Virus record (IMG/VR): IMGVR_UViG_3300049856_000130
Span: 1 to 46,754 of that record
DNA length: 46,754 nt
Origin: a virus
Direction: 5' to 3' (one strand)
The position numbers and the translations under genes were made by a program. How positions within the stretch are numbered: position 1 is the stretch's first letter; the number at the start of each line of letters is the position of its first letter. Shown one piece after another: positions 15 to 46,754 of the stretch. The notes beneath the pieces are model-generated. The model had not been told where the DNA came from. It worked only from the letters and a program-made list of their open reading frames with translations, and did no database searches.

Positions 15-499
15 TTTGACACATGACCATTTTTAGCAATGTCCTTATAAGGATCTTTACCATTTTTTAAAAATAGATAAGCCCCTCTTTCTCCTTGCCT
101 GTGGTAGATAGCCAGAAGCTCTAAATCGCTCATATTTTCGGCTAATTTTCTGGTTCTTACATCTTCGATAAATGGTTCAACCATGTTTTTAAAATAGATA
201 TCAAACATTTTATCCTGGTGAATTTCCATCTTCTTTTTTACTGAGGTAGTAGCCGTACATTTTGGAACTACAGAAGCCCAAGTTTTCCCGTACTTCTTTT
301 GAAAATAGGGGTTCCAAGCCTTCATGAATTGATACTTGCCGCTAGCACTCGTATAAGGGTTTTGAGCACATACATTGCCGCCGCTTTCAACCTTGGCAAT
401 AGCCTTCCTAGCAATAACATACTCATCATTGCTAAATGAGAAAGCCATGCTCGGAAAGGCAAAGAATATGATGAAAAATAAAAACATAAAGTCAAACAT
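1..499 (-). CDS. secreted lytic transglycosylase (SLT/lysozyme-like), main part; continues at 46700-46754
   Basis: The reading frame starts at 499, runs off position 1 and continues without a break from 46740 to a TAA at 46700-46702. The complete protein has 179 residues. Residues 1-20 form a hydrophobic signal or anchor sequence. The motif VESGG (residues 37-41, candidate catalytic Glu38) followed by SASGKYQFM (51-59) is the signature seen in lytic transglycosylases and phage muralytic domains. A later HRQGERGAYLF stretch fits the second SLT motif. The start at 499 is chosen because AAGGGGG lies four bases upstream; the internal ATG at 487 is too far from it. The gene lies between a small unknown gene and a papain-like protease in the lysis segment. 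It would cleave peptidoglycan glycan strands in the periplasm, complementing the amidase. Whether it acts in lysis or entry is inference. Confidence 0.8.
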   Translation of the reverse strand, partial: MFDFMFLFFIIFFAFPSMAFSFSNDEYVIARKAIAKVESGGNVCAQNPYTSASGKYQFMKAWNPYFQKKYGKTWASVVPKCTATTSVKKKMEIHQDKMFDIYFKNMVEPFIEDVRTRKLAENMSDLELLAIYHRQGERGAYLFLKNGKDPYKDIAKNGHVSKHIAR

Positions 500-512
500 A
501 CCACCCCCTTAA

Positions 513-674
513 TTAAGGTTCAACAAAGATATAAACCCACGTCTTTTTCGACCAATAAACCAAAGTATATTGGTAATGCGTTGTTACAATTTTGTTAGTT
601 ATAGGATGCGGCAGTTTGAGACCGTATTTTCTTCCTTTAGCAATGGTTGAAGGGTGAAAGAACTTTTCAACCAT
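513..674 (-). CDS. small basic protein of unknown function in lysis segment
   Basis: This 53-residue protein begins MVEKFFHPST and is rich in Lys, Tyr and Trp. The ATG at 674 is preceded by GAGGAACA, a good ribosome binding site, and begins 19 bases after the amidase stop. A longer start at 740 would overlap the endolysin by 47 bases and is less likely. There is no clear membrane segment or lipobox, so it does not look like a holin or o-spanin. It sits between the amidase and the transglycosylase and is presumably co-transcribed with them. The function is not recognised. Confidence 0.6.
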   Translation of the reverse strand: MVEKFFHPSTIAKGRKYGLKLPHPITNKIVTTHYQYTLVYWSKKTWVYIFVEP

Positions 675-693
675 TGTTCCTCGGAAGATAATT

Positions 694-1302
694 CTACACA
701 ATCTTAGCTGTTGTTTTTTTGCTCCTTTCTTGCAAATCATGTCTGATTTCCTCCATAGATTTTGTTAAAATCCTGCCAGGATCCACTTTTCTACCATCGG
801 GTAAGGCACACTCATCATGTCCACAAATCATGTTCGGTTTAATCCCATGTAAAACCAGCCAATCTAATAGCCGTGTAAGTTCTCTTTCTTGTGCGGTGGT
901 TGCCGGGTCCCACCACAATTTTTGTCCTTTGTAATCTCTCAGTACCGCTTCAGGTATCGCAGTCCCATTCCATGCTTCCTTGTGTTCGTTAAGTAGGCCC
1001 CACGATGCAAGCGAAATGGCAATAAAACAACGGTTAGGAGAGGCCTTATTCCATAAGGCTTTCCCTGCGTGATTTACCGCTAAGTTAAAGTAAGTTGTCT
1101 GGGTAGTTTTTCCATCTCGGTCGATAATTAAATGATAACCTAAATTTTGATTATTTTGAAGTGACTGGATAGCTCTTTTTACATTCCTATCGGCTAAATA
1201 ATGAACACAAATACCCGTTGGCTCCATCTTGGCCACGCCCATTTTCAGGTCTGCCCTTAGCTCTGTTGAATAAGGATAAACATCGGGAAAATTACCAGAC
1301 AT
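694..1302 (-). CDS. N-acetylmuramoyl-L-alanine amidase (endolysin, Amidase_2 type)
   Basis: This 202-residue zinc amidase would cut the bond between N-acetylmuramic acid and L-alanine in peptidoglycan. Visible Amidase_2 features are CVHYLAD (zinc ligand His34), GYHLIIDRDGK (55-65), VNHAG (77-81), MICGHDE (His162) and KVDPG (Asp174 as probable third ligand). There is no signal peptide and no separate wall-binding domain, which fits a globular endolysin of a Gram-negative phage that needs a holin. The ATG at 1302 has GGAAGGGG upstream. The start overlaps the end of the preceding membrane-peptide gene by 11 bases, a typical holin-endolysin arrangement. Confidence 0.92.
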   Translation of the reverse strand: MSGNFPDVYPYSTELRADLKMGVAKMEPTGICVHYLADRNVKRAIQSLQNNQNLGYHLIIDRDGKTTQTTYFNLAVNHAGKALWNKASPNRCFIAISLASWGLLNEHKEAWNGTAIPEAVLRDYKGQKLWWDPATTAQERELTRLLDWLVLHGIKPNMICGHDECALPDGRKVDPGRILTKSMEEIRHDLQERSKKTTAKIV

Positions 1303-1468
1303 CTTTAGCCCCTTCCATCTCTTGAAGCCGTTGGTCCTGAGCGTCTAAAGCTTCAATTATTTGAAGCAAAGCCTCATTATGTTGGGATAACATTAGCGTC
1401 ATCTCGTTCAACTTTAGCGCCCATGCTACAATCAATAAAGCAGTGATAGCCCAGCTTAATTGTCGCAT
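1292..1468 (-). CDS. single-span membrane protein, candidate holin or spanin-like
   Basis: This 58-residue protein has one hydrophobic segment at about residues 5-22 (SWAITALLIVAWAL). A polar, helix-prone tail rich in Gln, Glu and Leu follows and may form a coiled coil. It is immediately upstream of and overlaps the endolysin, the usual place of a holin. The topology (short N-terminus, one span, coiled-coil tail) would also suit an inner-membrane spanin, although it is short for that. The ATG at 1468 is supported by AGAGGTG; a GTG six bases upstream lies inside that ribosome binding site. An extended -10 promoter about 35 bases upstream makes it the first gene of the lysis transcript. Confidence 0.65.
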   Translation of the reverse strand: MRQLSWAITALLIVAWALKLNEMTLMLSQHNEALLQIIEALDAQDQRLQEMEGAKDVW

Positions 1469-1501
1469 GTTCACCTCTTTTATTTTGTTGTATTAATCTA
1501 C

Positions 1502-1510
1502 ATTATAACA
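1502..1510 (-). promoter_or_regulatory. extended -10 promoter for the lysis operon
   Basis: Reading the minus strand, TGTTATAAT is a perfect extended -10 (TG-N-TATAAT). It lies about 34 bases upstream of the candidate holin ATG. There is no good -35 at 16-18 bases, as is common for extended -10 promoters. It sits in the 57-base gap between two divergent genes. Transcription from it would give a leader of about 27 bases. Assignment is by consensus only. Confidence 0.5.
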
Positions 1511-1525
1511 TATGGAGCCCATTTT

Positions 1526-1741
1526 ATGTATCAATACAAGTTCAAATGTGATCTGTGCAATAATACCCACGAAAAAGATAATAACGGATTGCCCAAAGAT
1601 TGGTGGTATCTTGAGATTTCTAGAGATCTTTACGGCGACAATTTTAAGATTTGTGTATGCAAGTTTTGTTTGCCTACTCCCGTAAAAAAGTCGGATATCC
1701 AAGGTATTCTCCCATGGATACGCAAAAAGTTATGGTCTTAA
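1526..1741 (+). CDS. small zinc-ribbon protein
   Basis: This 71-residue protein carries CDLC (residues 9-12) and CKFC about 30 residues later, a zinc-ribbon spacing. It is one of few plus-strand genes and is inserted between the lysis genes and the glycosyltransferase. The ATG at 1526 is preceded by GGAG with eight bases of spacing. A longer in-frame start near 1460 would add a hydrophobic leader but overlaps the opposite-strand gene and its promoter, so it is rejected. A second small gene (3110-3313) has the same pattern, CDxC followed by CxxCxP, so the two may be distant paralogues. Possible roles are nucleic-acid or protein binding; none is demonstrated. Confidence 0.6.
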   Translation: MYQYKFKCDLCNNTHEKDNNGLPKDWWYLEISRDLYGDNFKICVCKFCLPTPVKKSDIQGILPWIRKKLWS

Positions 1742-1779
1742 GACGCATTTATCATATTGTTTCACAGTGTTAACTTTTC

Positions 1780-1815
1780 GCAAACACTCCTTATTTATTC
1801 TATGGGAGTGTTTGC
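1780..1815. repeat. 11-bp inverted repeat between convergent genes
   Basis: GCAAACACTCC (1780-1790) pairs perfectly with GGAGTGTTTGC (1805-1815) around a 14-base loop. It lies between a plus-strand gene ending at 1741 and a minus-strand gene ending at 1864. That position suits a bidirectional transcription stop or RNA processing hairpin. Neither side has a run of T, so it is not a canonical intrinsic terminator. Confidence 0.5.
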
Positions 1816-1863
1816 ACGAAGATAACCAAATGATTATGAATAAAACCGTTAAATAAAACAATT

Positions 1864-2898
1864 TCATACGGGGTCTAGCTGGTCCGAGTCCTCGCACCTT
1901 TGCCGGAAGTAGGCCCTGATTTCATCCCTTAACCTGATCGATCTATCGTCCCCGTGGTCGATCAATTGCCAAAGTCCCTGGCTGTCTCGCTTCACATCGA
2001 CATACGGGTCGAACTGGTTTTTCTCCAATATTTTCCATCTGTTCCAATATTGGCGATCCCCTTTTTTTCCATGCCACTCATGGCAAATTACCCCTGGGAC
2101 ATAACCAATATTTTGTCTGATATGCTTGTCGGCTAATTTCTGCCAGGCAATAACGGCTCGTTTATATCCATCGGTAACCCCGCTTGGCAAACTTTCTTCA
2201 GCCCTAGAGATTAGACCTAGTGCCATGGCATGATCCCCCGCGCCCAATAAACCATATTCATATAATCCTACTCGCTCATAGGCGCTTCGCCGCCAGGCCC
2301 AAGCATACCCTGGATGCCAATAAACTTTTTTATCGGTTATACCGTATTGGCTTTTGTTCGTGAATCTTTTGGGATTCAACCTACCATCGCTGTTAAGCAA
2401 TGGAGGGATTGTTTTGTTTTGGATTGTGTTTTGGTAACAATAATTAAAACCATAATTTTGGCCTACAATTGCAAGATCTGGGTAAGGTCCCATGTCTAGC
2501 GCGGTGGAGAACATCTGGACAACATCATAATGTTGGAGCTGCTGAACGGTTTCTTGCGCCCAGTCCATTCTTTGAAAGGTTAAGTCGGCATCGACCAGAG
2601 CGACCCATTTCCAATCGGCGGGAAGTCTGTTGATCGCTGCCGCCAGGAAGTTTTCCTTGTGCCAGAGCTCGTGCCTTGTCCTGAGCTGCAAATGGTTGGG
2701 ATTCTTTTCCTCGGTTATCTCAAACGGCCTATCCCCGAAAGCCACCTCCACAGTCATCAAGTTAACGCCAAAGCTCTTAATGTGAGCTTCAAATTTTCGG
2801 TAAAGATTGTACCGAGATTTGAAGCGAACCACGTTAGAAATCCCCGTGACAACCCAGAATTTATCTAGCGGCATCGGCGTTAAATCAGACTTAAACAT
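1864..2898 (-). CDS. GT-A-fold glycosyltransferase-like protein
   Basis: This 344-residue protein has the architecture of a nucleotide-sugar glycosyltransferase. It has an N-terminal strand (FWVVTGISNVVRF), a central DxD-type motif in VALVDADLTF (Asp103, Asp105) and a C-terminal acceptor half with CHEWHGKKGDRQYWNRW. The DxD would hold the metal and nucleotide-sugar. No signal peptide or membrane span is visible, so it should act in the cytoplasm. It is the last gene of the late minus-strand block after the tail genes, four bases after a small ORF. It may decorate phage virions or DNA, or alter host surface sugars to block superinfection. The target is inference. Confidence 0.7.
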   Translation of the reverse strand: MFKSDLTPMPLDKFWVVTGISNVVRFKSRYNLYRKFEAHIKSFGVNLMTVEVAFGDRPFEITEEKNPNHLQLRTRHELWHKENFLAAAINRLPADWKWVALVDADLTFQRMDWAQETVQQLQHYDVVQMFSTALDMGPYPDLAIVGQNYGFNYCYQNTIQNKTIPPLLNSDGRLNPKRFTNKSQYGITDKKVYWHPGYAWAWRRSAYERVGLYEYGLLGAGDHAMALGLISRAEESLPSGVTDGYKRAVIAWQKLADKHIRQNIGYVPGVICHEWHGKKGDRQYWNRWKILEKNQFDPYVDVKRDSQGLWQLIDHGDDRSIRLRDEIRAYFRQRCEDSDQLDPV

Positions 2899-2902
2899 GG
2901 TT

Positions 2903-3067
2903 TTATTCTTCTTCTGTGAAAAGTCTTTTTTGCTCTTTCAAATCTTTTTTGATGATAGGTCTAGGTGGGAACCAAGTTGACGATGGTTTAGTATGCGTGA
3001 GACTTTCACCCGTCTTCATCTTTCGGAGAATTTCATCATTTTCAATTTTTCGACAATCTGTCTTCAT
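2903..3067 (-). CDS. small charged protein of unknown function
   Basis: This 54-residue frame begins MKTDCRKIENDEILRKM and ends in an acidic tail (FTEEE). It is very polar and contains a Pro-rich WFPPRP segment. The stop lies four bases before the glycosyltransferase ATG, suggesting translational coupling. The ribosome binding site is weak. No family is recognised. The frame is supported by its snug fit between flanking genes and lack of overlap. Confidence 0.5.
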   Translation of the reverse strand: MKTDCRKIENDEILRKMKTGESLTHTKPSSTWFPPRPIIKKDLKEQKRLFTEEE

Positions 3068-3109
3068 ATTGTACCCATGATTTATTTTTTTTGGAATGGT
3101 TCTTAATTA

Positions 3110-3313
3110 TTAATTTATTACGCAGTAATTCCATAAATGGTCTACCGTGTAGCTCATAAACTTTTTGTGAGGTATGCAGGATTCACAAATATAAAAATGC
3201 AGTGTTTTTGCTTTTTTAGGCGTTAGCTTAATAGTAAATTCACTATTTTCAATGCCGCATATGTCACATAAAACAATGGAGTTAACCGAATCTTCATTTT
3301 GATCTGATTTCAT
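3110..3313 (-). CDS. small zinc-ribbon protein
   Basis: This 67-residue protein has CDIC (residues 16-19) and CESC about 28 residues later, followed by IP. The two CxxC pairs should bind zinc. The ATG at 3313 has a strong AGGAG ribosome binding site. The protein resembles the plus-strand product of 1526-1741 in size, CxxC spacing and the hydrophobic-aromatic stretch before the second pair. It lies after the tail fibre genes. The function is unknown. Confidence 0.65.
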   Translation of the reverse strand: MKSDQNEDSVNSIVLCDICGIENSEFTIKLTPKKAKTLHFYICESCIPHKKFMSYTVDHLWNYCVIN

Positions 3314-3333
3314 CGGTTAACTCCTAATTGTGA

Positions 3334-3510
3334 TTATCCTTCAGGATCTGGTACCATTACCGGCTTAAGGTTAGGAGAATGTTCCCCCTTAGCAATCTGA
3401 TAGATCTGATTCAAAACAACTTTAAGATACTCATGCTCATCAGCCGTGCCTTTATACTGTCTGCACACGGATTGGAGAGCGGTCATGGCTTGGTCTAGGT
3501 CGAATTTCAT
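3334..3510 (-). CDS. small helical protein, possible tail-fibre accessory
   Basis: This 58-residue frame begins MKFDLDQAMTALQSV and is predominantly helix-forming, ending in a Pro-rich tail (KPVMVPDPEG). It starts just after the stop of the upstream tail protein gene (TAA at 3512-3514), with AAGG about ten bases before its ATG. Tight spacing puts it in the tail-fibre operon. It could be a fibre chaperone or an unrelated moron; the sequence does not decide. Confidence 0.55.
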   Translation of the reverse strand: MKFDLDQAMTALQSVCRQYKGTADEHEYLKVVLNQIYQIAKGEHSPNLKPVMVPDPEG

Positions 3511-3511
3511 T

Positions 3512-4042
3512 TTAGGTTATCCTTGTGGCTTGGATAAATGAGTTAGTAGCATTAAAAATTCCGCTATTTAGAGTCGAAAAATCTATTCTACTCAATAAAT
3601 AAATTGTCGTAGAACCTGGAGGTAAATCAAAAATTCTTGGTGTTGTATAAAAATAAGAGTCGGTATTAATTGGTGGATTTGGAGGATATCCTTGAAAAAA
3701 TCCTCCGGCAGTAGACAAATCAATACTCGAAGAATTTAGCGATAAAGACATTATAACTACGGTTAATCCTGATATTTGCGTACCAGAAACCGATAGTCTT
3801 GACACCCCCTCTACACGCCATCTTCCTCCACCTAACGAAATAGATCCTGTTTGGATAAAATTTCCACTAACTGGAGTTCCGCCAGTTCCAGCGTTTCTAA
3901 TAACCTCCCCCACAAACCCCGCTGCCACAGCAGCTCCGCTAGTATTCCCTGGTAACCCACTCGCACTAACCTGCCCTGGACTAACGCCAGGAACCACTAT
4001 ATTTTGGCCAAAAACCGTTGGCGTGAATGCTGAGTTTGACAT
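3512..4042 (-). CDS. tail tip/fibre protein with C-terminal beta domain
   Basis: This 176-residue, Gly/Ser/Thr-rich beta protein begins MSNSAFTPTVFGQ. From about residue 45 it has a domain starting GFVGEVI and ending IQATRIT. The same layout (GYVGEKT to ITGIRV) ends the larger fibre protein at 4972-6645, so the two share a C-terminal domain. The ATG at 4042 is preceded by AAAGG with eight bases of spacing; a TTG at 4057 would overlap the upstream gene. It is a likely receptor-contact or fibre-tip component, inferred from composition and position beside the collar protein. Confidence 0.6.
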   Translation of the reverse strand: MSNSAFTPTVFGQNIVVPGVSPGQVSASGLPGNTSGAAVAAGFVGEVIRNAGTGGTPVSGNFIQTGSISLGGGRWRVEGVSRLSVSGTQISGLTVVIMSLSLNSSSIDLSTAGGFFQGYPPNPPINTDSYFYTTPRIFDLPPGSTTIYLLSRIDFSTLNSGIFNATNSFIQATRIT

Positions 4043-4053
4043 ATTTTTACCTT

Positions 4054-4704
4054 TCAATTTACTCTGATTAAATAGACTACGTTTATATAGTTTGGTTCTG
4101 TTGAAAATGCCGTGGTGGTTCCAGGCCCGTTCCCTGAGTTACCAGTGAAGTTTGGAAGGTCCACGTTATGGCTGTGATCAAGGTTCGCCGAGGTATTGAC
4201 ACTGATACCTGTCGTTGCGCTGCTTGTTACGTTTGTATTAAAGAACGAGTTCAGAGCTGATGCCACGTTAGCGGCGTTTCCACCAACTCCATAAGCTGGG
4301 CAAACGTGAATATGTCCCGGATCGGTGATACCGTGTCCGTGAGTTGTGTTGGCCGACATACCCGTTGACGTTACGTTACCATGATCGTGGTCTATAGTGT
4401 GAACATGTGGCGGAAGGTTGGCCGCTGCAATGGTACTTGTATTAGATCCACCCGTCCCACCATAAGTTGTCGAGCCTCTCAAATAAATGGAGCCTGACAA
4501 GTTCGGAGATGTTCCACTAACTGAGTTGCTTGCAGGTATCGCCGTTCCATCGGCTCTCATATAACCATTGCTCACCACACCCGATGCCGGAATAGCCATG
4601 GCACCCGTGAGCCCTGAGGTCATAGCGATAATTGCACCCAGAGGCACAACCCCTGGCGCATTTCCCGCTGCTTGAAAGTTACCTATAATATTTGTTGTTG
4701 CCAT
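4054..4704 (-). CDS. tail collar / fibre-tip protein with His-rich metal-binding segment
   Basis: This 216-residue protein has the features of phage tail collar domains. It has an N-terminal PLGAIIAMTSG and NGYMRADGTAIP, then LPPHVHTIDHDHG (about 99-111) and further HxH pairs (THGHG, GHIHV, DHSHN). It ends in EPNYINVVYLIRVN, the canonical collar-family terminus. In T4 short and long tail fibres the HxH repeats bind metal ions inside an intertwined trimer; the same is likely here. It is co-transcribed with neighbouring fibre genes and is a good candidate for the host-receptor-binding tip. Confidence 0.85.
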   Translation of the reverse strand: MATTNIIGNFQAAGNAPGVVPLGAIIAMTSGLTGAMAIPASGVVSNGYMRADGTAIPASNSVSGTSPNLSGSIYLRGSTTYGGTGGSNTSTIAAANLPPHVHTIDHDHGNVTSTGMSANTTHGHGITDPGHIHVCPAYGVGGNAANVASALNSFFNTNVTSSATTGISVNTSANLDHSHNVDLPNFTGNSGNGPGTTTAFSTEPNYINVVYLIRVN

Positions 4705-4944
4705 TTATTTCACCTTTACTGCAAGTTTAATATCGGTTCCCGTTTGGCTTTCCATATTTTCTTTAACCGCTATCACCCAATCGACACCAAGTTTTAAAGA
4801 GTATTGATCCCAATTAGGGATGGTTTGAATCCCACCATTTTCGAGATAGAGAGCCATGGTGTTGCCTTCGAGTTTGTGGCCTATGACCTCTATTTTTTTC
4901 CAGAGGAATTTTTTGCGGTATTTGAAAATGTATTTTTTGTTCAT
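4705..4944 (-). CDS. small fibre-module protein of unknown function
   Basis: This 79-residue protein begins with a very basic, aromatic stretch (MNKKYIFKYRKKFLWKKIEV) followed by beta-like sequence (MALYLENGGIQTIPNWDQY). It abuts the collar gene, whose ATG follows its stop directly. There is no signal or membrane segment. The arrangement between two fibre genes suggests a fibre-assembly or attachment role, which is inference only. Confidence 0.65.
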   Translation of the reverse strand: MNKKYIFKYRKKFLWKKIEVIGHKLEGNTMALYLENGGIQTIPNWDQYSLKLGVDWVIAVKENMESQTGTDIKLAVKVK

Positions 4945-4971
4945 TAGGCGTTCTCTAGTGCTACGATCTTA

Positions 4972-6645
4972 TCAAACTCTGATTCCAGTTATTTTTCCTA
5001 CCATTGTCCCTCCAGTTTGCGATGTATAGTAAACTGTTGCGCATATATAGATCGTCGTAGTTGTATTGAAACTATAAACCTGAGGTAAACAGATACCACC
5101 TCCAGCTACCGCTCCACTTATGAATGTTCCCAAAACATTTGTTACGGCTGAATTATTGTCGAATCCATTGTTTGTATCAGAAAGATTTGTTGTTATGTTG
5201 TTTATATTAACCCCTGGACCAGCATAGGCCGATCCAAAAGTTGCTGTGACGGTTCCGTAGATTAGCCATGTTCCTGCTGAAAAAGACTGCGATGCTATCG
5301 TTGTGGTAATACTGCTAGCACCCCATGCAACACTACCAACTATTGTAACAGAGGTTTTTTCGCCAACATACCCAGACGGAACTGAGCTTCCATCTTTCCT
5401 ACCTACGATAAGGTTTCCGGGAAATGTTGCGTTAGCCGGATTGCCTAAGGTCCAAACTCCAACCCCATTACATAGAGCAAAATTAACCGTGGCTGCCCTA
5501 TTCGCTACTTGTAAAGCTGTGTCGCCAGCAACTATTCCTGCCCTAAGGCTTAAACCGTTGCTGTTCCCTGCACTGGCCGAGGCATTTGTGGCCTGGATAA
5601 TCGCAGTATAACCGCCTGTCGCATCACCTTGAATAGTATGTGGTCCAGAACTTCCGGCAGCAGGTCCAGCAGTTAAACCGCCAGCATTGCTCCAACTTCC
5701 AATCTGAGTCGCTGAACTATTCTGTAAAACAAATCCGCCCGAGTCCTTAGCTTTCAACGTCGAAAACTGAACGAGAGTCGAATCAATCGACAAAGGAAGT
5801 GTCACGCCAACGGCAGGAGCATTGAGAGCAAAATTTATCTTGGCTGAAACGTATCCAGCAATGCTCGGTAGAGTAGCCTGAATGATTCCAGCACTCGTTA
5901 CGGTGATCAAAAATCCCACGGGTGGTGTGTCACCGACATATTGCGGGGATATGTTATAATCCGTGGCCGCACCGTTCTTTGCGAAGGGAGCCGACACATA
6001 AAATTTAGAGTCGGTTGTTCCATCGATCTCAACCCACCCGGTCAACTCACCCGCTTGATATGCCGCAACGGATTGGACGTTCGTCACCGTGTTATTGCCC
6101 AAGGCTATCTCAGTCCGAGCGTTCGAGCTCCCAACCACCGCACCCCGTGAGGATCGGACATAGATAACCGTGGTCGAAATGGCAACACCCACGGGTAAGG
6201 AAACATGGCCTATCACGGTTGGCTCGGTAATCGTGATCCCACCGGAAACCGTTGGGCTCAAGAAATAGGCTTCGCCAGCAGTTAGCCCTGTCAGCCCTGT
6301 TACCTTGCCTTCCAGCGTCGCTTCAAAAGTATTGGCATCAATCACTCGGGAAACCATCCCGATGATTTCAGAAGTGTTTGCGGCATTGGCAAGGGCTCTT
6401 GCGTAAGCTGTACCCGTATAATACAAAATTTCACCCACAGAAAAACCGTGAGCTGTCTGAATGATCTTATCTACTGTTCCACCTGCGCCAATTGCCGTTT
6501 CTAGCCCAGTAGAATCCTGAACTTGGAATGTACCACCACGGTTAATGAGTCTATGAGATCCGCTTGCAGGGTTTGCAATGCTCGATACTCCAACATCTTT
6601 TAAAACCGTGGAATTAAACTTTGGATTTTGTCCTGTGTATGCCAT
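4972..6645 (-). CDS. large tail fibre protein
   Basis: This 557-residue protein is low in charge and rich in Gly, Ala, Ser, Thr and Val, as beta-helical fibres are. The N-terminus (MAYTGQNPKFNSTVLKDVG) resembles phage fibre attachment segments. Residues about 60-160 contain an IIQTAHGFSVGEILYYTG and GLTAGEAYFLSP domain common in tail proteins. A C-terminal beta domain from GYVGEKT (about residue 425) is shared with the smaller protein at 3512-4042. It probably forms the shaft of a side or tip fibre used in adsorption. The specific receptor cannot be deduced. Confidence 0.75.
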   Translation of the reverse strand: MAYTGQNPKFNSTVLKDVGVSSIANPASGSHRLINRGGTFQVQDSTGLETAIGAGGTVDKIIQTAHGFSVGEILYYTGTAYARALANAANTSEIIGMVSRVIDANTFEATLEGKVTGLTGLTAGEAYFLSPTVSGGITITEPTVIGHVSLPVGVAISTTVIYVRSSRGAVVGSSNARTEIALGNNTVTNVQSVAAYQAGELTGWVEIDGTTDSKFYVSAPFAKNGAATDYNISPQYVGDTPPVGFLITVTSAGIIQATLPSIAGYVSAKINFALNAPAVGVTLPLSIDSTLVQFSTLKAKDSGGFVLQNSSATQIGSWSNAGGLTAGPAAGSSGPHTIQGDATGGYTAIIQATNASASAGNSNGLSLRAGIVAGDTALQVANRAATVNFALCNGVGVWTLGNPANATFPGNLIVGRKDGSSVPSGYVGEKTSVTIVGSVAWGASSITTTIASQSFSAGTWLIYGTVTATFGSAYAGPGVNINNITTNLSDTNNGFDNNSAVTNVLGTFISGAVAGGGICLPQVYSFNTTTTIYICATVYYTSQTGGTMVGKITGIRV

Positions 6646-6686
6646 GTGAGTTTCCTCATGCGTTGTTTACGTTTGGCTTTTACCTG

Positions 6687-6956
6687 CTATCTCATAAGTA
6701 TCGCCCCGACTAAAGCTTGCCCGGCTTTCAGGGATTCCATCGCTATCATCTTACATTCATCAGGGCTTAAATCGTTCAATTCCAATTGAATTTTATCAGA
6801 GTCTTGAATGGCTTTTCTTGCTGCCAAAATAACTGGAGCAAACTTAGGAATATCAAACCAATCTAAGTCGCCATCTTTTTTTGACTCGGAGATAGCTTCA
6901 GCTATAACTAAAATCAAATCCACTAACTCTAGACTTTCTTTGATTCCTACACTCAC
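6687..6956 (-). CDS. small helical protein of unknown function in tail module
   Basis: This 89-residue, mostly helical, acidic protein begins MSVGIKESLELVDLILVIAEA. It overlaps the upstream gene by four bases (ATGA), so translation is coupled. It has no strong membrane segment. It lies between baseplate/tail genes and the large fibre. Similar-sized helical proteins in this position are often of unknown function. Confidence 0.65.
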   Translation of the reverse strand: MSVGIKESLELVDLILVIAEAISESKKDGDLDWFDIPKFAPVILAARKAIQDSDKIQLELNDLSPDECKMIAMESLKAGQALVGAILMR

Positions 6957-7219
6957 AATTCACCCCTATTTTCATAGTTTTTTTCGAAATATTCTTTAGT
7001 TACTACCCAAGCCTCTTCATCGGAAATGATTACAACATCCCCTGGTTTTGCGCTTTGTTGTCCTGTTTCTGTTTTCAAAAGCATATTTACTTCTGCGATG
7101 AAACTCAAATGTTCTACTGGTTTTTTCATAACTTTGTGAGTAGCCCAACTTTTGATAAGTCTTAGACAGCTATCTTTATGGTTAACAAAGTCGAATCTCA
7201 AATTTTCATCCAATTTCAT
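6953..7219 (-). CDS. small protein of unknown function in tail module
   Basis: This 88-residue protein begins MKLDENLRFDFVNHKDS. The N-terminal half is helical and the C-terminal half is beta-like, with KPGDVVIISDEEAWVVTKEYF. It pairs with the downstream 89-residue gene by a four-base overlap. The start is the first ATG after a 31-base gap from the upstream tail gene. No family is recognised; conservation of the pair would indicate a joint role. Confidence 0.6.
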   Translation of the reverse strand: MKLDENLRFDFVNHKDSCLRLIKSWATHKVMKKPVEHLSFIAEVNMLLKTETGQQSAKPGDVVIISDEEAWVVTKEYFEKNYENRGEL

Positions 7220-7250
7220 TTATAAATTTTCTCGCAAATTTCTATTATGG

Positions 7251-7931
7251 TCATAAAACAAACCAATCCGTACCATCATTAATGAGTGTCCATGCTCCAA
7301 GATCATAATCTAAAACAAAACTAGCTGCTACGGTTTCTATTTTCTCTGATCCAGCTCTAACCAAGGTGATCGGGTTGGTAGAAGCTGAGCCCGTCTTGTC
7401 TTTTAACCATATTGGTTTCGTTGTCGATGCGGGGCTTGGGAGAGTTAGAGACCTCGCGGCGGAAGTATCAACCAAATGATATTTTCCTTCTTCCAGTGTC
7501 ACCGGCCCAGAGACCACCTTCGTTACAAAATCAACTTTCTTGGAGTTGATGACTCCCTGAGTAAGAACAAGAGCAAGGTTTCTTGAAGCTCCAGAGCTGT
7601 TCGTAACGCGGATTCGAGTTGTGGTAAAGCTTGGAGTTGCTGCAATAGTAAATGAGGAAAGAGCTGGAGTAGAAGAGTCTGAAATAAGAGTCAACTCTCC
7701 TGTCCCAGTATCTCTGAGGTAGAGGTCATATCGGAGATCTGCAAACGGGCATTTAAAGTTATGCTCAAAGTCTACGTTGGCAGCATTTGCCAAAGCATCT
7801 TGAGTGAAGAATCTGGAGTTAGTCATGTCTCCAATCTTCTCGTAGATATCTTCTATGGCTGTGTGCAATGCACTGCCGCCAGCATCACCCAAGGCAGGGT
7901 GAGTTAATTGTAATCTTGAAATAATTGCCAT
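7251..7931 (-). CDS. tail/baseplate structural protein
   Basis: This 226-residue protein begins MAIISRLQLTHPALGDAGG, a segment typical of phage tail proteins that starts with a short helix and continues in beta-rich sequence. The C-terminal part (SLTLPSPASTTKPIWLKDKTGSA to DWFVL) resembles the small beta-sandwich domains found in phage fibres. It lies in the baseplate-to-fibre stretch with only three bases to the next gene upstream. A structural role is inferred from composition and position. Confidence 0.6.
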   Translation of the reverse strand: MAIISRLQLTHPALGDAGGSALHTAIEDIYEKIGDMTNSRFFTQDALANAANVDFEHNFKCPFADLRYDLYLRDTGTGELTLISDSSTPALSSFTIAATPSFTTTRIRVTNSSGASRNLALVLTQGVINSKKVDFVTKVVSGPVTLEEGKYHLVDTSAARSLTLPSPASTTKPIWLKDKTGSASTNPITLVRAGSEKIETVAASFVLDYDLGAWTLINDGTDWFVL

Positions 7932-7934
7932 TAA

Positions 7935-8333
7935 TCACCTACCAAATGTTGCGTAATGAAATTTTTTGTCCTCTTTGGCTCTACCCATAATACGCTTTGA
8001 TCCATCGATAAAAACTTTTATTTCCCTTTCTCTCGTGACCAAGCATAATCCGACATTATTGCTTACCAGCTTCAAGTCACCCTTAGGCCATCCAGGAGCC
8101 CCCGCCAATGCTAGCCATTTGAAGAGACAATAATCCCAGCCATCGCATTCGGCTAGCGTTTCTTCATCTCCACCGTTGATATGCTTTCCAATGATTGAGG
8201 CCCTAATCAGGCCCTCTTTCATTTGACTATGTGCATTCTGGCTATTGTCCTCATAGGGTCTCAGCCAAAGACCCTTTTTAGTAGGATGGTTCAAAAACTC
8301 TAATTTCCAAGTTACTTTGTAAATTCGTTTCAT
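7935..8333 (-). CDS. tail-module protein of unknown function
   Basis: This 132-residue protein begins MKRIYKVTWKLEFLNHP. The ATG at 8333 has TAAGG six bases upstream and begins eight bases after the previous gene. A longer frame reaching 8540 is a shadow overlap with that gene and is not used. The sequence mixes aromatic and charged residues (KGLWLRPYEDN, ECDGWDYCLFKWL, REIKVFIDG), consistent with a compact alpha/beta domain. Family and function are not recognised. Confidence 0.6.
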   Translation of the reverse strand: MKRIYKVTWKLEFLNHPTKKGLWLRPYEDNSQNAHSQMKEGLIRASIIGKHINGGDEETLAECDGWDYCLFKWLALAGAPGWPKGDLKLVSNNVGLCLVTREREIKVFIDGSKRIMGRAKEDKKFHYATFGR

Positions 8334-8340
8334 TTTAACC

Positions 8341-9027
8341 TTAAGCCGTAAATGAGTAGGACCAAACAAGTTCCCATTGAAGGACCCCTCCGTCCGTTTC
8401 ATCCTGGCGTAAATAGAATCTTGTTTTGATGTGAGCACGGTCGCCGAGCACTGTATCACCTGTTTTTCCCACGCGCCCGGCCACTGGAGTACCGGCATCG
8501 ACTTCAGTACCACCGTTGTTTCTTGACATAGCATCGGCATGGATCAGGAAAGCCGTTGCAAGGTTCCTGCCTTCGCCCGTAGCAGCCCCGCCGTTGTCTC
8601 CGAATATCCTGACATTGGTTCCAATTCGAGCTGGCGCAAACTGGCTAGGCTGCGATACCTGCCAGTCCATATCGATATGGAAACCGTTGGCGAGTCCGTC
8701 AGCGTTGTTTGCGTTGGCTGAGTTCGAAGCATTTCCCATGTTTAATAGCTTGGTTATATCGGCTGTAGCTGAGTTAGCCCCACCATAGGTAAAGCCCGTA
8801 CCAACACCATATTGTTGAGCGTATAAACTTAAATCTGTTATGGGGTCAATAACCGCATCGTGTTTAACGAATATCGATTGATAACCATCGTTACTTGGAA
8901 TGTCTACAACAGGACTAAACTGTCCGTTAATTACTTGGCCTAGGTCAAGTCCAGTACCTCCCCCACTTAAACTATCGGCTAGAGCTCCACCCGTTAGGGT
9001 TTCAGAAATCGTTAAATTTACCGCCAT
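8341..9027 (-). CDS. tail structural protein
   Basis: This 228-residue protein begins MAVNLTISETLTGGALADSL and is rich in Gly, Asn, Ala and Asp with few charged runs, as in virion proteins. The ATG at 9027 has AGGAG upstream. Recognisable patches include YQSIFVKHDAVIDPITDLSL and TRFYLRQDETDGGVLQWELV near the end. It follows the 652-residue hub-like protein by four bases. It is probably part of the tail tip or baseplate. Confidence 0.65.
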   Translation of the reverse strand: MAVNLTISETLTGGALADSLSGGGTGLDLGQVINGQFSPVVDIPSNDGYQSIFVKHDAVIDPITDLSLYAQQYGVGTGFTYGGANSATADITKLLNMGNASNSANANNADGLANGFHIDMDWQVSQPSQFAPARIGTNVRIFGDNGGAATGEGRNLATAFLIHADAMSRNNGGTEVDAGTPVAGRVGKTGDTVLGDRAHIKTRFYLRQDETDGGVLQWELVWSYSFTA

Positions 9028-9031
9028 TGTA

Positions 9032-10990
9032 TTAGATCTCCTGAGTTATCGTACCGTTTTGCCCCGAAACTATGCCAAAATAACCTGGATTCCAGGTCTT
9101 AAAAGGGAACATTTGAAAAGACCATATTTTTATGACTATCTTTAAACCGTCTGGATCATATCCGATATCCCTAATCATACCTGGGACATCGTTTAGAATC
9201 ACGCTTCCGATCGAAACATTTAGCTTAACAAAATTGCCAATGTCTAAAAGCATGGCCCGCCACGTCAGATTTATGTCAAAAATTTCGATTGTCCCACTTG
9301 CAAGGCGCACTATTTCTATGAGTTGAGAAGCAACCACATTTGATTGATATAGGTTCGGGAAGACTATCTTCTTAGAGATTTTAAGGCCCGCCATTTGCGT
9401 TATGGCGTCATCATTTCTCATGATGGAAGTAGCCCTAGAATTTTCGTTAACTATGGGTAAAAAGTTAAACGCCGCTTGCGCCCTATTGAAGTTATTTTTT
9501 TCATCGATTCTCGCCCTTAGCGAGCCTTCTACGACATCCCAGTTTTTAACATTATAGGTAGTCAATTCGTCCCAGTCTTCGAAGTGAAGACTGTTAAGCT
9601 TTAGCTTCAAATCCCTATCGATAAATGCTTCTAACCTGACTTGCTCAAGCAGGGATAAAACGTATGTCATAGCTGGGGTAGATTCGTTGAGCCAAATTCT
9701 TGATTTAAACGTGCTTATAGATGACTGCGCTGGAGTTGCTTTGTCTCGATATGTTTCCCAATTGAGATCAAAGTCCCCGTAAATTAAACCGCCGTATGTA
9801 ATGATTATATCGTGAGCTTGCCATACTATATTATTATCATACCCAATGTTTTTCCCTCTAACTTGGACAAAAAATTCATCGCCAGAATCAAAAGCGTAAG
9901 CAATTAAAACCCCTGCGCCATCGTTCATCCACAAAGCGCCCTGTTTGACTTCAAATATGTTCTTATTGCCGTTGACATTCGTTACCTCTGCGCTAGGAAC
10001 CAAGCTATAAACTTCGCTCCTTCTCACATAAACTTTGGACGTATCGAAAAAATAATTGGCGTTTTCTGAGATCAAAAAAGATAGGTTTTTTCTTGGCTCG
10101 CCCGTGAATGGTTTGAATTGGTGTGTACCAGTTTGAGCTCCTGAAGAAGTAATAACAGCGCCACCTGGAGACAGGGATATCTCGAAGGAATCTAACAAAG
10201 GATTTCTAACGTAATAGGCTGTTGAAATAGCAAGAGGAGAAGGAAGAGATCCAGTTGTCACAAGCTCTATCTTGCCTCCCTCATCAAGAGCATGAGCCAC
10301 GCAAGATAGAGTTGATCCAGATATGGTTACCTCCTTCTCCTTGTACGCTACAAATGGATCTGATCCATTCGTACAATAAGCGGGGATAGCAGCATAAAAT
10401 GGTTCTAATTCTACGGTCCAATCTCCGTAAATTAAGGGTATTATCTTTCCTAAGTTTTTCTGCTCGCACTTAGGAAAGCTATCGTAGGTTATCGCCGTGT
10501 TCGGGAATTTCGCGTTTATTCTGTCGTAGTTGTCTCGCGCCACAATGATAATTGAGTTGATGGAGCGTTGAAACCCTCCAACGGGAGTAATTGTGCCCTT
10601 AAATATCGTTGTATACGTTCCGGCTTTCTCTGCCAAACCCACTTTAACCACAACCTGCTTATTAACCCATCCCCCATAGTTATTCCCGCTTTGTAGTATG
10701 TTGTTAAACCGTCCGTCTACGTTGCTTAATTCTAGTGTTAATGTACTAAATTGGAGGTCATTCGACAACCATTCTCCAACGGTTCTCCCTATCGTCGGGA
10801 ACACTAAAAGTGCTTCGTAGAAAGTCCCATCAACATACTTGTTTCGATCGCTTGCGTAGATAGTCCCAGTAGGGCTTTCGATCTCGCAAACCATCTCTAT
10901 TTTACATTCTAAATTGTCATGACAGAAATCTAACAATGCTTGGTCAAGCACGTTAGATGTTAGGTATGGTCTTCGGTTACTACTGCTCAT
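9032..10990 (-). CDS. tail tip / baseplate hub-like protein
   Basis: This 652-residue protein overlaps the upstream tail gene by one base. The first 150 residues are beta-rich (EIESPTGTIYASDRNKYVDG, LTLELSNVDGRFNNIL). A central IIPLIYGDWTVELEP segment is seen in phage tail-tip proteins, and a C-terminal part carries MIRDIGYDPDGLKIVIKIW. Such proteins form the hub at the distal tail end that closes the tube and carries fibres. No peptidase or lysozyme motif is visible. The assignment rests on position after the tape measure and on composition. Confidence 0.65.
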   Translation of the reverse strand: MSSSNRRPYLTSNVLDQALLDFCHDNLECKIEMVCEIESPTGTIYASDRNKYVDGTFYEALLVFPTIGRTVGEWLSNDLQFSTLTLELSNVDGRFNNILQSGNNYGGWVNKQVVVKVGLAEKAGTYTTIFKGTITPVGGFQRSINSIIIVARDNYDRINAKFPNTAITYDSFPKCEQKNLGKIIPLIYGDWTVELEPFYAAIPAYCTNGSDPFVAYKEKEVTISGSTLSCVAHALDEGGKIELVTTGSLPSPLAISTAYYVRNPLLDSFEISLSPGGAVITSSGAQTGTHQFKPFTGEPRKNLSFLISENANYFFDTSKVYVRRSEVYSLVPSAEVTNVNGNKNIFEVKQGALWMNDGAGVLIAYAFDSGDEFFVQVRGKNIGYDNNIVWQAHDIIITYGGLIYGDFDLNWETYRDKATPAQSSISTFKSRIWLNESTPAMTYVLSLLEQVRLEAFIDRDLKLKLNSLHFEDWDELTTYNVKNWDVVEGSLRARIDEKNNFNRAQAAFNFLPIVNENSRATSIMRNDDAITQMAGLKISKKIVFPNLYQSNVVASQLIEIVRLASGTIEIFDINLTWRAMLLDIGNFVKLNVSIGSVILNDVPGMIRDIGYDPDGLKIVIKIWSFQMFPFKTWNPGYFGIVSGQNGTITQEI

Positions 10991-12429
10991 TATAAACTTT
11001 CATCAATTTCTACAGCAAGCGTTACTATATCGGCGGCATCCCCTCTATTCTCATGCTCTTCTTCAGGGATATCTACCAACTTTCCAAAAACTCCGAATCT
11101 TTTTGGGTCTTGTGGGTCTGGAAGCCATAGACATTTTAAACTAGTTCTGGCTGTTTCAAAAACATTTATTAAGCTGTCGAAGTTCCCTTTACGGTAATCT
11201 AAACTGTTAAAATTAACAACGATGGATCTCTTTAAGGCTCTATCGTTCGACACATTTGTAAACCCTTCTGTCTTTACTTTCGAGGAAAAGTGACGCATTT
11301 TTCTACGGATTCGATCAACAATATCCTCTCCCTGAAAAATAATTGAGTTCCCAAAAATAATCGTTCCCACCTGCAAAAATCCTTCTGGATTTGTCGGATC
11401 GCTTATCGTCAATCGCCAGTATCGGTATTGTGTTGTTGGGAATGTTGGGGATATGTAATAGCTGTTAATACTAGTCGCCTCGATCGGGAGAGTAATGCCC
11501 ACGCTGGCAAAGGTAGGAGAATTGCTACCTTCGAATGTAACCACGGCGCTGGAGGACCAGTTATGATTAAGGAACGCGAAGGTATCAGGAGCGACTCCTT
11601 GAACTAGTTGGGTGTCACAAACCAATGTAGCCGATAATGAGCTGTTTGATCTCCATACATATTCTACAATATCGTTGTTTACATTATTGACAGAAAAATC
11701 ACCTGCTAGAGTTGATGAAGCCGTCCAGTTTAAACCATTGGTTCCACGGCTAGGAAACTCAGAAAGGATCCGTAGCTTTGTGGTATTGTAGAGAACAAAC
11801 CTGATCTGAGATCCTAAGTTCAAAGCTCTTAGCAAGTTTATCTCGGCTCCAATAGCCTTAACAGCTTCTATGACTCGCTCAACTTCTACGCCGTTCTGAG
11901 TGTACGTCTTGATAGCCCGATCCATCTCGACGCCCGTATATCGCTTAGTCACAATCTTTCGATCAATCTCTAAACCGATATGGGCACAAATCCCATCAAC
12001 CAAATATCTTTTTGTCAGGTAGTCTTCAGACAGATAGCCCTTTTCTCGGCAATGCCAGGAAGAGATATATTTTTCCCTGGTTATTTCGACTCCAGAGAAT
12101 TGAGTGTCTCCTAATGATCTTTCAACTTCCACGCCCGAATATCGTGCTGTGGATATCTTCCTTTCGATTTCCAAGCCAATTTGGTCCATAGATTCTATGG
12201 TTCTTTCGACTTCCGTTCCTAGAAAATCATCTCCAGGATTAGACCGATCGACCTCGATCCCTGAATAAACCATTTCAATTAATCTTCTATCGATCTCCAG
12301 CCCCGAGGCTAGATCATCCTGAATGACCCGCTTAACCTCCGTTCCATAGTGGTCTCGGCATCTCCCCGACATATAGCTATAAGTTAAATATGGTTCTTCG
12401 AGATATCCGAAATAGGCTGGATTTGTCAT
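10990..12429 (-). CDS. distal tail-like protein with modular 14-residue repeats
   Basis: This 479-residue protein starts in an ATGA overlap with the tape measure stop. Residues 8-207 are repetitive. A 21-residue element with GYL-x-E-x-YLT (residues 8 and 131) is followed by tandem 14-residue units starting G-x-E-hydrophobic-D/E-R (glycines at 29, 43, 57, 71, 85, 99, 113 and 152, 166, 180, 194). Residues about 215-360 look like a discoidin/galactose-binding-type beta sandwich (TTQYRYWRLTISDP). The C-terminus is alpha/beta (KCLWLPDPQDPKRFGVFGKL). Its place directly after the tape measure is that of a distal tail protein. The repeats are not part of the usual family. Confidence 0.6.
   Translation of the reverse strand: MTNPAYFGYLEEPYLTYSYMSGRCRDHYGTEVKRVIQDDLASGLEIDRRLIEMVYSGIEVDRSNPGDDFLGTEVERTIESMDQIGLEIERKISTARYSGVEVERSLGDTQFSGVEITREKYISSWHCREKGYLSEDYLTKRYLVDGICAHIGLEIDRKIVTKRYTGVEMDRAIKTYTQNGVEVERVIEAVKAIGAEINLLRALNLGSQIRFVLYNTTKLRILSEFPSRGTNGLNWTASSTLAGDFSVNNVNNDIVEYVWRSNSSLSATLVCDTQLVQGVAPDTFAFLNHNWSSSAVVTFEGSNSPTFASVGITLPIEATSINSYYISPTFPTTQYRYWRLTISDPTNPEGFLQVGTIIFGNSIIFQGEDIVDRIRRKMRHFSSKVKTEGFTNVSNDRALKRSIVVNFNSLDYRKGNFDSLINVFETARTSLKCLWLPDPQDPKRFGVFGKLVDIPEEEHENRGDAADIVTLAVEIDESL
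11809..12408 (-). repeat. coding repeat array: 42-base units encoding GxE(I/V)(D/E)R peptides
   Basis: Within the 479-residue tail protein, eleven units of 14 residues follow two copies of a 21-residue cysteine-containing element. Seven units follow the first element and four follow the second. The glycine spacing is exactly 14 within each series. Unit cores such as GLEIDR, GIEVDR, GTEVER, GLEIER, GVEVER and GVEMDR are easily seen in the translation. Confidence 0.85.
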
Positions 12430-44728: not shown

Positions 44729-44962
44729 ATGTTGAAAAAATTATTTAGATTTTTAACAAAAAAAGTTTTAGCTGAAAATATTAGGATCTGCCCATTTTGT
44801 TCTGGAGACGTTTTGGCCGTTCGCCAATCCCGAGAAGGATTTTATTTAACTTGTGAAAATTGTTTTGCAAGATCGAGAGAAGCAGCTACTATCAGCCTTG
44901 CAATCAACCAATGGAACATAGTTGTATATGAACAAAAACGAATGGCATCAGTGGAGAGCTAA
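44729..44962 (+). CDS. Lar-family restriction-alleviation-like zinc-ribbon protein
   Basis: This 77-residue protein begins MLKKLFRFLTKKVLAEN. It has ICPFCSGDVLAVRQSREGFYLTC, then ENCFARSREA and SLAINQWN. This matches Lar/RalR-type proteins: CPFC, a strand, C-x-x-C-x-A, A-I-x-x-WN. Such proteins bind type I restriction enzymes and modulate their methylation or cleavage, protecting phage DNA. The ATG at 44729 follows AAGGA by five bases; an ATG six bases earlier abuts it. It overlaps the next gene by 35 bases. It implies a host with restriction systems. Confidence 0.78.
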   Translation: MLKKLFRFLTKKVLAENIRICPFCSGDVLAVRQSREGFYLTCENCFARSREAATISLAINQWNIVVYEQKRMASVES

Positions 44963-45518
44963 GGGACTTGGTGCATCAGATGCACCGATCATCTTAGGCC
45001 TCAGCCCATGGAAAGATCGAATCACTTTATACAAAGAAAAAATTGGTGAAATAAAAAAAGATTATACAAGCAATTGGGCAATCGATCGGGGTAATAGACT
45101 GGAGCCGATCGCTAGAGCTCATTATGAATTGATGGTTCTCTACGATTGCCCTCCTCAAATGGTAGAACATGGTGAATTTCCCTGGCTGAGAGCTTCCCTC
45201 GACGGATACAACCCCGTCGAGAGTGTCGTACTAGAAATCAAATGCCCTGGCAAAGCTGACCATCAAAAAGCGATAGACTATAAAGTACCAAAAAAATACT
45301 ATGCTCAATTGCAACACCAGCTCCTAGTTACTAGAGCCAAGCGTTGTGATTATTTTTCTTTCGATGGTTCTACTGGCGTCATCGTCGAAGTCTTTCCCGA
45401 TCCTGCTTTTATGCTTCGGTTATTTTGCGAGTTAAGAGATTTCTGGGAATGTATCGAAAACAGAAAAGAGCCATCAAAAACAATTAATGAATTAGTTTTA
45501 CCAGGAATTGTTGAATGA
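44928..45518 (+). CDS. YqaJ-type exonuclease (lambda exonuclease-like)
   Basis: This 196-residue protein begins MNKNEWHQWRAKGLGASDAP. It has the YqaJ/lambda-exonuclease motifs: RAKGLGASDAPIILGLSPW, RGNRLEPIARAHYE, WLRASLDGY, VVLEIKCPGKADH (Glu-Ile-Lys catalytic core) and YYAQLQHQLLVT. It would resect double-stranded ends 5'->3' to make 3' single strands for Sak4 and the SSB-like protein. It is on the plus strand opposite the other recombination genes. The start ATG lies inside the Lar-type gene. Confidence 0.92.
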   Translation: MNKNEWHQWRAKGLGASDAPIILGLSPWKDRITLYKEKIGEIKKDYTSNWAIDRGNRLEPIARAHYELMVLYDCPPQMVEHGEFPWLRASLDGYNPVESVVLEIKCPGKADHQKAIDYKVPKKYYAQLQHQLLVTRAKRCDYFSFDGSTGVIVEVFPDPAFMLRLFCELRDFWECIENRKEPSKTINELVLPGIVE

Positions 45519-45829: not shown

Positions 45830-46678
45830 TCATGGTTTTTTAGCCTGTAAAACTGCAAAAGCTGCAATCTCCCCAATTCGGTTGCATCGATTACCAAACC
45901 GATCTTTATAGGCAATGAAGAGATATCCACCTGCTCCCCATTGTGTACCCCATGAGTTTCTAACTACCCAGTAGCCACCGTCATCATTCCAGCCCTCGAT
46001 TACAACCATGTGATCAACTCTAGCTTGCGTACAATTGCGGAAGATGCCACCCCGATAGTTACCGAAAGATCCGTTGACCACGGCTGCAACAGGCCCATAT
46101 TTCAGAATCGCAGCTTTTAATTCGGTTTCTGAAGGGGCTTGCCCTGGAGTTCCGATATATGACCAGCTAAATAATTTTGCTACTGGTTTAGGATATGGAC
46201 AGGCTAAGTCGGCTCCTGCATATGGGAAGGAAGCTTCATTCGTTACGCCCTTAGCTACGATATAGTTAAAAGCATTGAAGAATCCCCCGCGACAAGATCC
46301 AGATCCCGAACAGCTCAAGACATCCTGCTCACTCAAATCTTCTCTATTTTGGTTCGTTAAATGAGTCAGAGACTCAACGACTGAAGTTGTGGCAAAGGCC
46401 CAGCATGATCCACATCGGCCCTGGTTTCTAATCGGGTGAGTCGATGCCCAAACAAAATTCCTAGGCAAAGCCAAGGATTCTTGATCCTCTTTAGCCATCG
46501 AAGTCCACTCAGCTAACTTAGGCCAATTTTCGGGAAGCTCTAAGCCCCTGCCGTTGTCATCGTCAGCCTGTTCATCTTCGGAGCTCCAGCCCCCATCATG
46601 TCCTAATGGGTCTGGAGTTTCTTGAGCCTTTGCAATGCTTGACATTTGCAACAAAAAAAAGAGGATAAAAAGCTTCAT
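45830..46678 (-). CDS. secreted papain-family (C1A) cysteine protease
   Basis: This 282-residue protein has a signal peptide (MKLFILFFLLQMSSIAKAQ, likely cleaved near residue 19). An acidic segment of about 50 residues may act as a short propeptide. A full papain-like domain starts near LPRNFVWAS. Catalytic residues are all present: Gln86 and Cys92 in NQGRCGSCWAF, His223 in VDHMVVIEGW, Asn241 in RNSWG. Extra Cys (SCSGSGSCRGG, LACPYP, FRNCT, NRCNR) suggest disulfides, hence periplasmic or extracellular action. It follows the secreted transglycosylase by 21 bases in the lysis segment. C1A proteases are very rare in phages. Possible targets are envelope proteins or released host material. Confidence 0.93.
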   Translation of the reverse strand: MKLFILFFLLQMSSIAKAQETPDPLGHDGGWSSEDEQADDDNGRGLELPENWPKLAEWTSMAKEDQESLALPRNFVWASTHPIRNQGRCGSCWAFATTSVVESLTHLTNQNREDLSEQDVLSCSGSGSCRGGFFNAFNYIVAKGVTNEASFPYAGADLACPYPKPVAKLFSWSYIGTPGQAPSETELKAAILKYGPVAAVVNGSFGNYRGGIFRNCTQARVDHMVVIEGWNDDGGYWVVRNSWGTQWGAGGYLFIAYKDRFGNRCNRIGEIAAFAVLQAKKP

Positions 46679-46699: not shown

Positions 46700-46754
46700 T
46701 TACTTACTAGCAATTATACTTTGTTTTGAAGCTTTTACCACCCTAGCTATATGC
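46700..46754 (-). CDS. lytic transglycosylase, C-terminal end (continues from 1-499)
   Basis: After the junction the frame reads VVKASKQSIIASK and stops with TAA at 46702-46700. This completes the 179-residue transglycosylase that begins at 499. Positions 46741-46754 repeat 1-14. The short basic tail does not change the domain call. The stop precedes the protease ATG by 21 bases. Confidence 0.8.
   Translation of the reverse strand, partial: HIARVVKASKQSIIASK
46741..46754. repeat. terminal direct repeat, right copy
   Basis: These 14 bases are identical to 1-14. Removing one copy gives a 46,740-bp circle in which the transglycosylase gene is intact. Confidence 0.9.

Follow-up and report, generated by a model that had tools for sequence, protein, structure and literature searches.

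Lysis of Gram-negative hosts by phages is carried out by a holin, an endolysin and a spanin (or a disruptin), and the question raised by the locus described here is what an exported cysteine protease of the papain family (C1A) does at the end of such a set of genes. The window, i.e. the whole stretch of 46,754 bp that was analysed, comes from an IMG/VR virus record. A first-pass annotation had read in it a secreted C1A protease within a phage lysis segment, next to a transglycosylase and an amidase. The features needed for the argument are the following.

45830 to 46678, minus strand: exported C1A (papain-family) cysteine protease of 282 aa (open reading frame, Pfam, alignment and model).
46625 to 46678, minus strand: signal peptide of the protease, residues 1-18, with an AKA/Q cleavage site placed by eye (sequence inspection).
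46700 to 46740, minus strand: final 13 codons and stop of the transglycosylase-like gene, on the far side of the contig join (joined ORF).
46741 to 46754, no strand: 14-bp exact repeat of window positions 1-14 (CCCTAGCTATATGC), the overlap of the contig ends.
1 to 499, minus strand: first 166 of the 179 codons of a secreted lysozyme/transglycosylase-like protein, running on over the join to 46700 (joined ORF, weak profile matches).
513 to 740, minus strand: small ORF between amidase and transglycosylase, kept in a collinear relative (39% identity).
694 to 1302, minus strand: N-acetylmuramoyl-L-alanine amidase (Amidase_2), probable endolysin (Pfam E=2.2e-15).
1292 to 1468, minus strand: 58-aa protein whose N-terminal part has one transmembrane (TM) segment and whose tail is coiled-coil-like; a candidate for the holin or for a short i-spanin (sequence only).
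1730 to 1867, minus strand: 45-aa predicted lipoprotein with lipobox LSSC, candidate o-spanin-like protein (sequence prediction only).
1864 to 2898, minus strand: glycosyltransferase-like ORF that matched neither Pfam nor PHROG.
44922 to 45518, plus strand: YqaJ/RecE-like exonuclease, first gene of the convergent early module and far border of the segment (profile matches).

The protease open reading frame begins with ATG, preceded eight bases 5' by GGAG, a good ribosome-binding site. Peptidase_C1 spans residues 73-266 (E=9.9e-46; 157 bits against a curated cut-off of 20.7), far beyond a chance match to the family, and the catalytic set Q86, C92, H223 and N241 stands at the positions first assigned to it, invariant across an alignment of 32 sequences with a mean identity of about 30%; cysteines 89, 123, 129 and 160 are conserved as well. 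The protein is laid out as a signal peptide (residues ~1-18, MKLFILFFLLQMSSIAKA/QE), a pro-segment (~19-70) containing the motif GLxxPxNW, and a catalytic domain (71-278). Its AlphaFold2 model (mean pLDDT 88.2, pTM 0.82) has the papain fold, with procathepsin K as the top structural match (Z 30.8) and with plant papains and cathepsins as its relatives among solved structures. Residues 31-70 of the model superpose on the stretch of the procathepsin K and propapain propeptides that threads the active-site cleft. The globular I29 inhibitor domain is absent, Peptidase_C1 being the sole Pfam match and the pro-segment, at about 50 residues, comprising the cleft part only. By sequence and model, this has the appearance of an intact C1A protease that is exported in a pro-form, and the secreted papain-family enzyme originally proposed is confirmed; in family and fold it is ordinary, and it is its position that calls for explanation.

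In order of transcription, the segment runs from the glycosyltransferase-like gene through those for the 45-aa lipoprotein, the 58-aa TM protein, the amidase, the small ORF and the transglycosylase-like protein to the protease, the final gene of this same-strand late segment, with the transglycosylase stop at 46700 lying 21 bases ahead of the protease start. The amidase and the transglycosylase-like gene sit at the opposite end of the window, and the latter reads through the join of the contig ends; the assembly represents the genome as a circle of about 46,740 bp, as given by the 14-bp end overlap. The join is confirmed by the lysozyme-like gene of a complete collinear relative (IMGVR_UViG_3300049893_002232; L196, G443), which aligns through it, over 152 aa with the joined ORF as opposed to 140 aa with the cut one. 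An earlier scan with the single transglycosylase sequence had returned no viral relative, and none in 192 Bdellovibrionota genomes, this relative being recovered later through the collinear genome; a search with window positions 1-12000 returned no near-identical phage DNA.

The lysis context initially perceived around the protease is thus borne out across the join, and three types of enzyme, directed at glycan, amide and protein bonds, do share one segment, with the qualification that the transglycosylase has weak profile support (PF06737 E=0.002, below the cut-off of that family; phrog_4067 E=0.0018). The amidase provides the probable endolysin expected in a Gram-negative lysis cassette. No confident family match was obtained for the 58-aa TM protein, nor PHROG names for the small TM genes near the protease, and a clear i-spanin/o-spanin pair was not seen in the window, where the 58-aa protein and the 45-aa lipoprotein are the candidates.

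The surprise at finding a C1A protease in a lysis locus was justified as regards its placement; the gene is not, however, a one-off, but a member of a recurrent phage family that is often found beside lysins and is accessory. A profile scan of IMG/VR placed relatives on virus loci, of which the best 80 of 89 were retained. Annotated phage records searched with the protease gave no match, and those searched with the L002 domain gave distant ones only, e.g. Lak phages. Several carriers are related to the window in other genes too: besides a 49% identical protease, L085 has in common with it the terminase (47%), the portal (42%) and the prohead protease; the overlap with G444 (L364) comprises the genes for terminase, portal and capsid along with a 47% identical protease; L117 has tail genes in common with the window and a 45% identical amidase beside its C1A gene; and L168 combines a C1A gene with a replication module like that of Bdellovibrio phage phi1422. 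An export signal was present in all 47 viral copies analysed, with a lipobox-like cysteine in 14. Invariant catalytic residues in the 32 sequences and dN/dS values of 0.07-0.14 between related phage C1A pairs indicate that the enzyme has been kept functional.

The family also shows some variety of architecture. A 994-aa protein (L130:7902-10886(+)) fuses an exported C1A protease to an SGNH-hydrolase-like and a GH5-like domain, and in L008:1983-3848(+) and L009:3529-5394(+) a C1A-like protein is split, from the region of the catalytic cysteine, by a large insert resembling an intein. Counterparts of the window's glycosyltransferase-like ORF occur in two C1A carriers, G444 (57% identity) and L141 (37%).

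Across 45 viral loci, lysins account for 13 of the 186 genes up to three positions away from the protease and for 3 of the 318 at four to nine positions (Fisher p=3e-4, a value that is indicative only, since the seeds of the count came partly from near genes and the loci are related). By Pfam, 148 near genes include Amidase_2 nine times, M15 twice, and Phage_lysozyme and GH108 once each; among 148 far genes no lysin family appears in the 25 commonest Pfam families listed, a comparison that weak singletons could escape. The clustered amidase lies directly upstream of the C1A gene in eight of the nine loci that have it, and one ancestral arrangement is common to eight or nine of the cases with a lysin. 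The lysin types nonetheless differ (Amidase_2, GH108, Phage_lysozyme, M15 and a lysozyme-like protein), which argues that the association was formed repeatedly. No recognised lysin occurs within three genes in 32 of the 45 loci.

Other exported proteins recur around the phage C1A genes. In ten loci the gene directly after the protease encodes an exported protein with an invariant HExxH and a downstream EGxADYY (alignment A3) and no Pfam match (e.g. L110:5346-6176(+) and L089:4714-5520(+), besides eight more); the label 'metalloprotease' for this protein rests on the motif, its model having a pLDDT of 70 and no significant PDB match. SNase genes, whose products have no signal peptide, come next in most of these loci. 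A family of exported proteins or lipoproteins of unknown function, A4, is found near the C1A gene in 11 phage loci (e.g. L125:8993-9826(+) and L085:8125-8808(+)), and in G444 the C1A gene adjoins both a gene from an uncharacterised exported family and a trypsin-like gene (L364:9287-10144(-), E=2.9e-17), the latter placing two protease families side by side. Exported redoxin/thioredoxin-like lipoproteins are also encoded near C1A genes (L146:6261-6977(+), L085:7405-7878(+), L138:9220-9681(+), L141:5692-6174(+) and L139:2452-2958(+)); these might hold the catalytic cysteine reduced.

That the protease is accessory emerges most clearly from the collinear relative, a complete genome with a 127-bp terminal repeat in which most genes have counterparts in the window in the same order, with identities largely in the range 34-78%. 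The amidase (54% identical), the small ORF, the transglycosylase-like gene and the exonuclease are all there, and a similar 69-aa TM ORF occupies the place of the 58-aa protein. The complete genome contains no C1A gene, nor clear spanins besides the 69-aa TM protein, and at the place of the protease it encodes a CAP-domain protein (L362:3425-3928(-), E=1.3e-12) predicted to be a lipoprotein. Lysis in this lineage therefore works without the protease, and the slot after the lysis enzymes holds exchangeable exported cargo; the protease gene is present in 4 of 22 related virus records.

The identity of the host bears directly on what such an enzyme could digest. The top annotated match of the window's primase and helicase is phi1422, which is also among the best for Sak4. 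The cellular search took in 291 genomes of Bdellovibrionota, the phylum to which a Bacteriovoracaceae genome belongs, where the closest cellular proteases were found: chromosomal, exported, up to 43% identical (in G082) and matched in 85 of the 291 genomes. In the protease tree, 43 viral and eight Bdellovibrionota sequences form one clade (support 98/96) with a weak internal backbone, along which the bacterial rows nest among the viral ones; the suggestion that the gene may have come from a bacterium gains a cellular kinship, and by this tree transfer may have run from host to phage or from phage to host. Among the neighbour genes of the related phages, which are not the window's own, the HExxH family occurs in 199 of 291 Bdellovibrionota genomes, in up to nine copies each, against 0 of 149 Spirochaetota, and A4, as chromosomal copies standing alone, in 26 of 281 against 0 of 149. 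From its sequence distribution, the HExxH family may possibly be a hallmark of predators. A4 was also tried as a prophage marker in Bdellovibrionota; the 11 A4 regions read there contained no clear prophage (one short phage-like match in two of them) and no C1A gene, and the marker was set aside. A prophage-like Bdellovibrionota region (L193; G026:C22:7001-26900) has relatives of the primase and helicase of the window, and no C1A gene. Matching of host DNA and spacers with 20 kb of the window gave chance-level matches, with no CRISPR array at the best three loci, and no near-identical prophage was found. From these sequence relationships we infer that the host is a member of Bdellovibrionota, a predatory bacterium.

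The reading preferred here, to which we give about an even chance, is that the exported protease is made together with the lysis enzymes and digests proteins of the envelope or the bdelloplast, speeding the release of progeny. As to timing, in a phage of Bdellovibrionota the late/lysis transcription unit would yield it as its final product. It would probably be exported by Sec as a zymogen, since the short pro-segment sits in the active-site cleft, and removal of this segment outside the cytoplasm would activate it. Holin, amidase and transglycosylase would open the wall, after which the protease could digest periplasmic and outer-membrane proteins and, in a periplasmic predator, bdelloplast proteins as well, so that the envelope would fall apart faster and progeny be freed. 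A phage in a periplasmic predator must pass the bdelloplast shell, as Bdellovibrio itself does. B. bacteriovorus leaves its bdelloplast by means of the secreted protease Bd2269 and the lysozyme DslA; deletion mutants of either one exit late, and E. coli cells lyse when Bd2269 is expressed inside them (PMC12546842, PMC7511926). The sheath of a host cell, named at the outset among the conceivable targets, is plausible if the host is indeed such a predator inside a bdelloplast. A broader form of the proposal, possible if somewhat doubtful, is that phages of predators, facing two shells (the predator envelope and the prey bdelloplast), recruited the predator's exported digestive and prey-exit enzymes (C1A, HExxH and others) into an interchangeable slot of the lysis module, resulting in a protease-assisted lysis of both shells.

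The neighbours described above can also be understood in terms of feeding, with the protease boosting the predator's digestion of prey protein during infection and supplying amino acids to the phage, without any part in lysis. Homologues adjoining exported degradative enzymes (HExxH, trypsin-like, the GH5 and SGNH fusion), the abundance of the HExxH family in Bdellovibrionota and the accessory nature of the gene are all consistent with this. It seems rather unlikely for the window, however, where the protease closes the lysis run, next to lysins, and is not in the early module; moreover, the SNase partners have no signal peptide.

Modification of the host surface, in which the enzyme would trim surface proteins and thereby block superinfection or alter the host as conversion-type cargo, has a lower probability still. 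The CAP lipoprotein in the same slot of the collinear relative and the many homologues predicted as lipoproteins (14/47) would suit it; on the other hand, the window proteins scanned included no recognisable lysogeny module, the slot is within the lysis run, and a papain fold of broad specificity is a blunt tool for the purpose. Lipoprotein homologues, together with the want of a clear spanin pair in the window, could likewise point to the protease as the outer-membrane-disrupting step in phages without classical spanins. This is quite improbable, as the collinear relative lacks the protease and equally shows no clear spanins beyond its 69-aa TM protein, while phi1422 has spanins and no protease (PMC6139136).

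A virion-associated or entry protease, suggested at first sight, has very little to recommend it: the single point in its favour is the position of the structural genes, which come before the lysis segment and share its strand, against which stand the signal peptide on every analysed copy, the absence of a tail or adhesin domain in the protease by Pfam, and the lysis genes that separate it from the tail genes; a eukaryote-directed role found no support either. Fusion of a bacterial gene to the phage at the contig end, conceivable from the position of the gene 63-76 bases off that end, its GC content (46.5% against 42.2% for the contig) and its absence from the closest collinear relative, is rejected as having a negligible chance, because the protease is contiguous with the verified transglycosylase end and the related phages L085 and G444 carry proteases 47-49% identical to it. 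The circumstance set out beforehand as speaking against the finding, loss of the gene from every close relative together with a neighbouring assembly join, does not apply, on these two grounds.

Lysis assistance by the exported protease thus remains the favoured reading. A search of open-licence papers for C1A proteases in phage lysis found nothing relevant, and the placement of the protease, its recurrence beside lysins and the link with predators are, to the extent that this could be checked, new. The recurrence of an exported C1A protease beside varied lysins suggests a protein-degrading accessory lysis step, undescribed in the open-licence literature searched. It would tie phage lysis to the secreted enzymes with which predators leave their prey and, if the hosts are predators inside prey, the exit of a phage from two cells, a long-neglected question, becomes testable.

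Comparison with known systems places the locus between several of them. With canonical Gram-negative phage lysis cassettes it shares an endolysin-type amidase, a second muralytic-like enzyme and a small TM protein, and it differs in adding an exported protease and in showing no clear spanin pair. Phi1422 is the closest described phage for the primase and helicase, and also shares endonuclease and exonuclease genes with the window (30-43%); unlike the window, it is a dwarf myovirus with unrelated virion genes, in which no C1A gene was found. Both phi1402 and phi1422 have two-component spanins (PMC6139136), and phi1422 thus indicates that the protease is not generally required in Bdellovibrio phages.

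Among cellular enzymes, the chromosomal C1A proteases of Bdellovibrionota (L061 in G082, L062, L063 and L064) have the same signal peptide, short pro-segment with a GLxxPxNW-like motif and single C1A domain, and belong to the same clade at 33-43% identity, but no lysis genes adjoin them where the neighbourhood was read. Papain, cathepsins L/K/S, ananain and procerain have in common with the phage protein the fold, the Gln-Cys-His-Asn set, the disulfide cysteines and a pro-segment in the cleft, whereas the protease of the window is phage-encoded and its pro-segment is short, without the globular I29 part. Bd2269 and DslA offer the functional likeness of a secreted protease and a lysozyme that free progeny from the bdelloplast (PMC12546842, PMC7511926), Bd2269 being the predator's own serine protease of the subtilase family and not a phage C1A enzyme.

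A viral analogue is known from insects. Baculovirus V-CATH and chitinase pair a viral C1A pro-enzyme with a polysaccharide-degrading enzyme in the terminal breakdown of the host and the release of progeny, acting on cadavers and with an activation that depends on chitinase (PMC9965964). In a structure search of viral models, fragments of baculovirus cathepsin ranked below several giant-virus and phage C1 proteins, and the likeness is one of analogy only; with an amidase and a transglycosylase-like gene adjacent to its C1A protease, the window would nevertheless present a bacterial-virus parallel to the liquefaction brought about by baculovirus cathepsin and chitinase.
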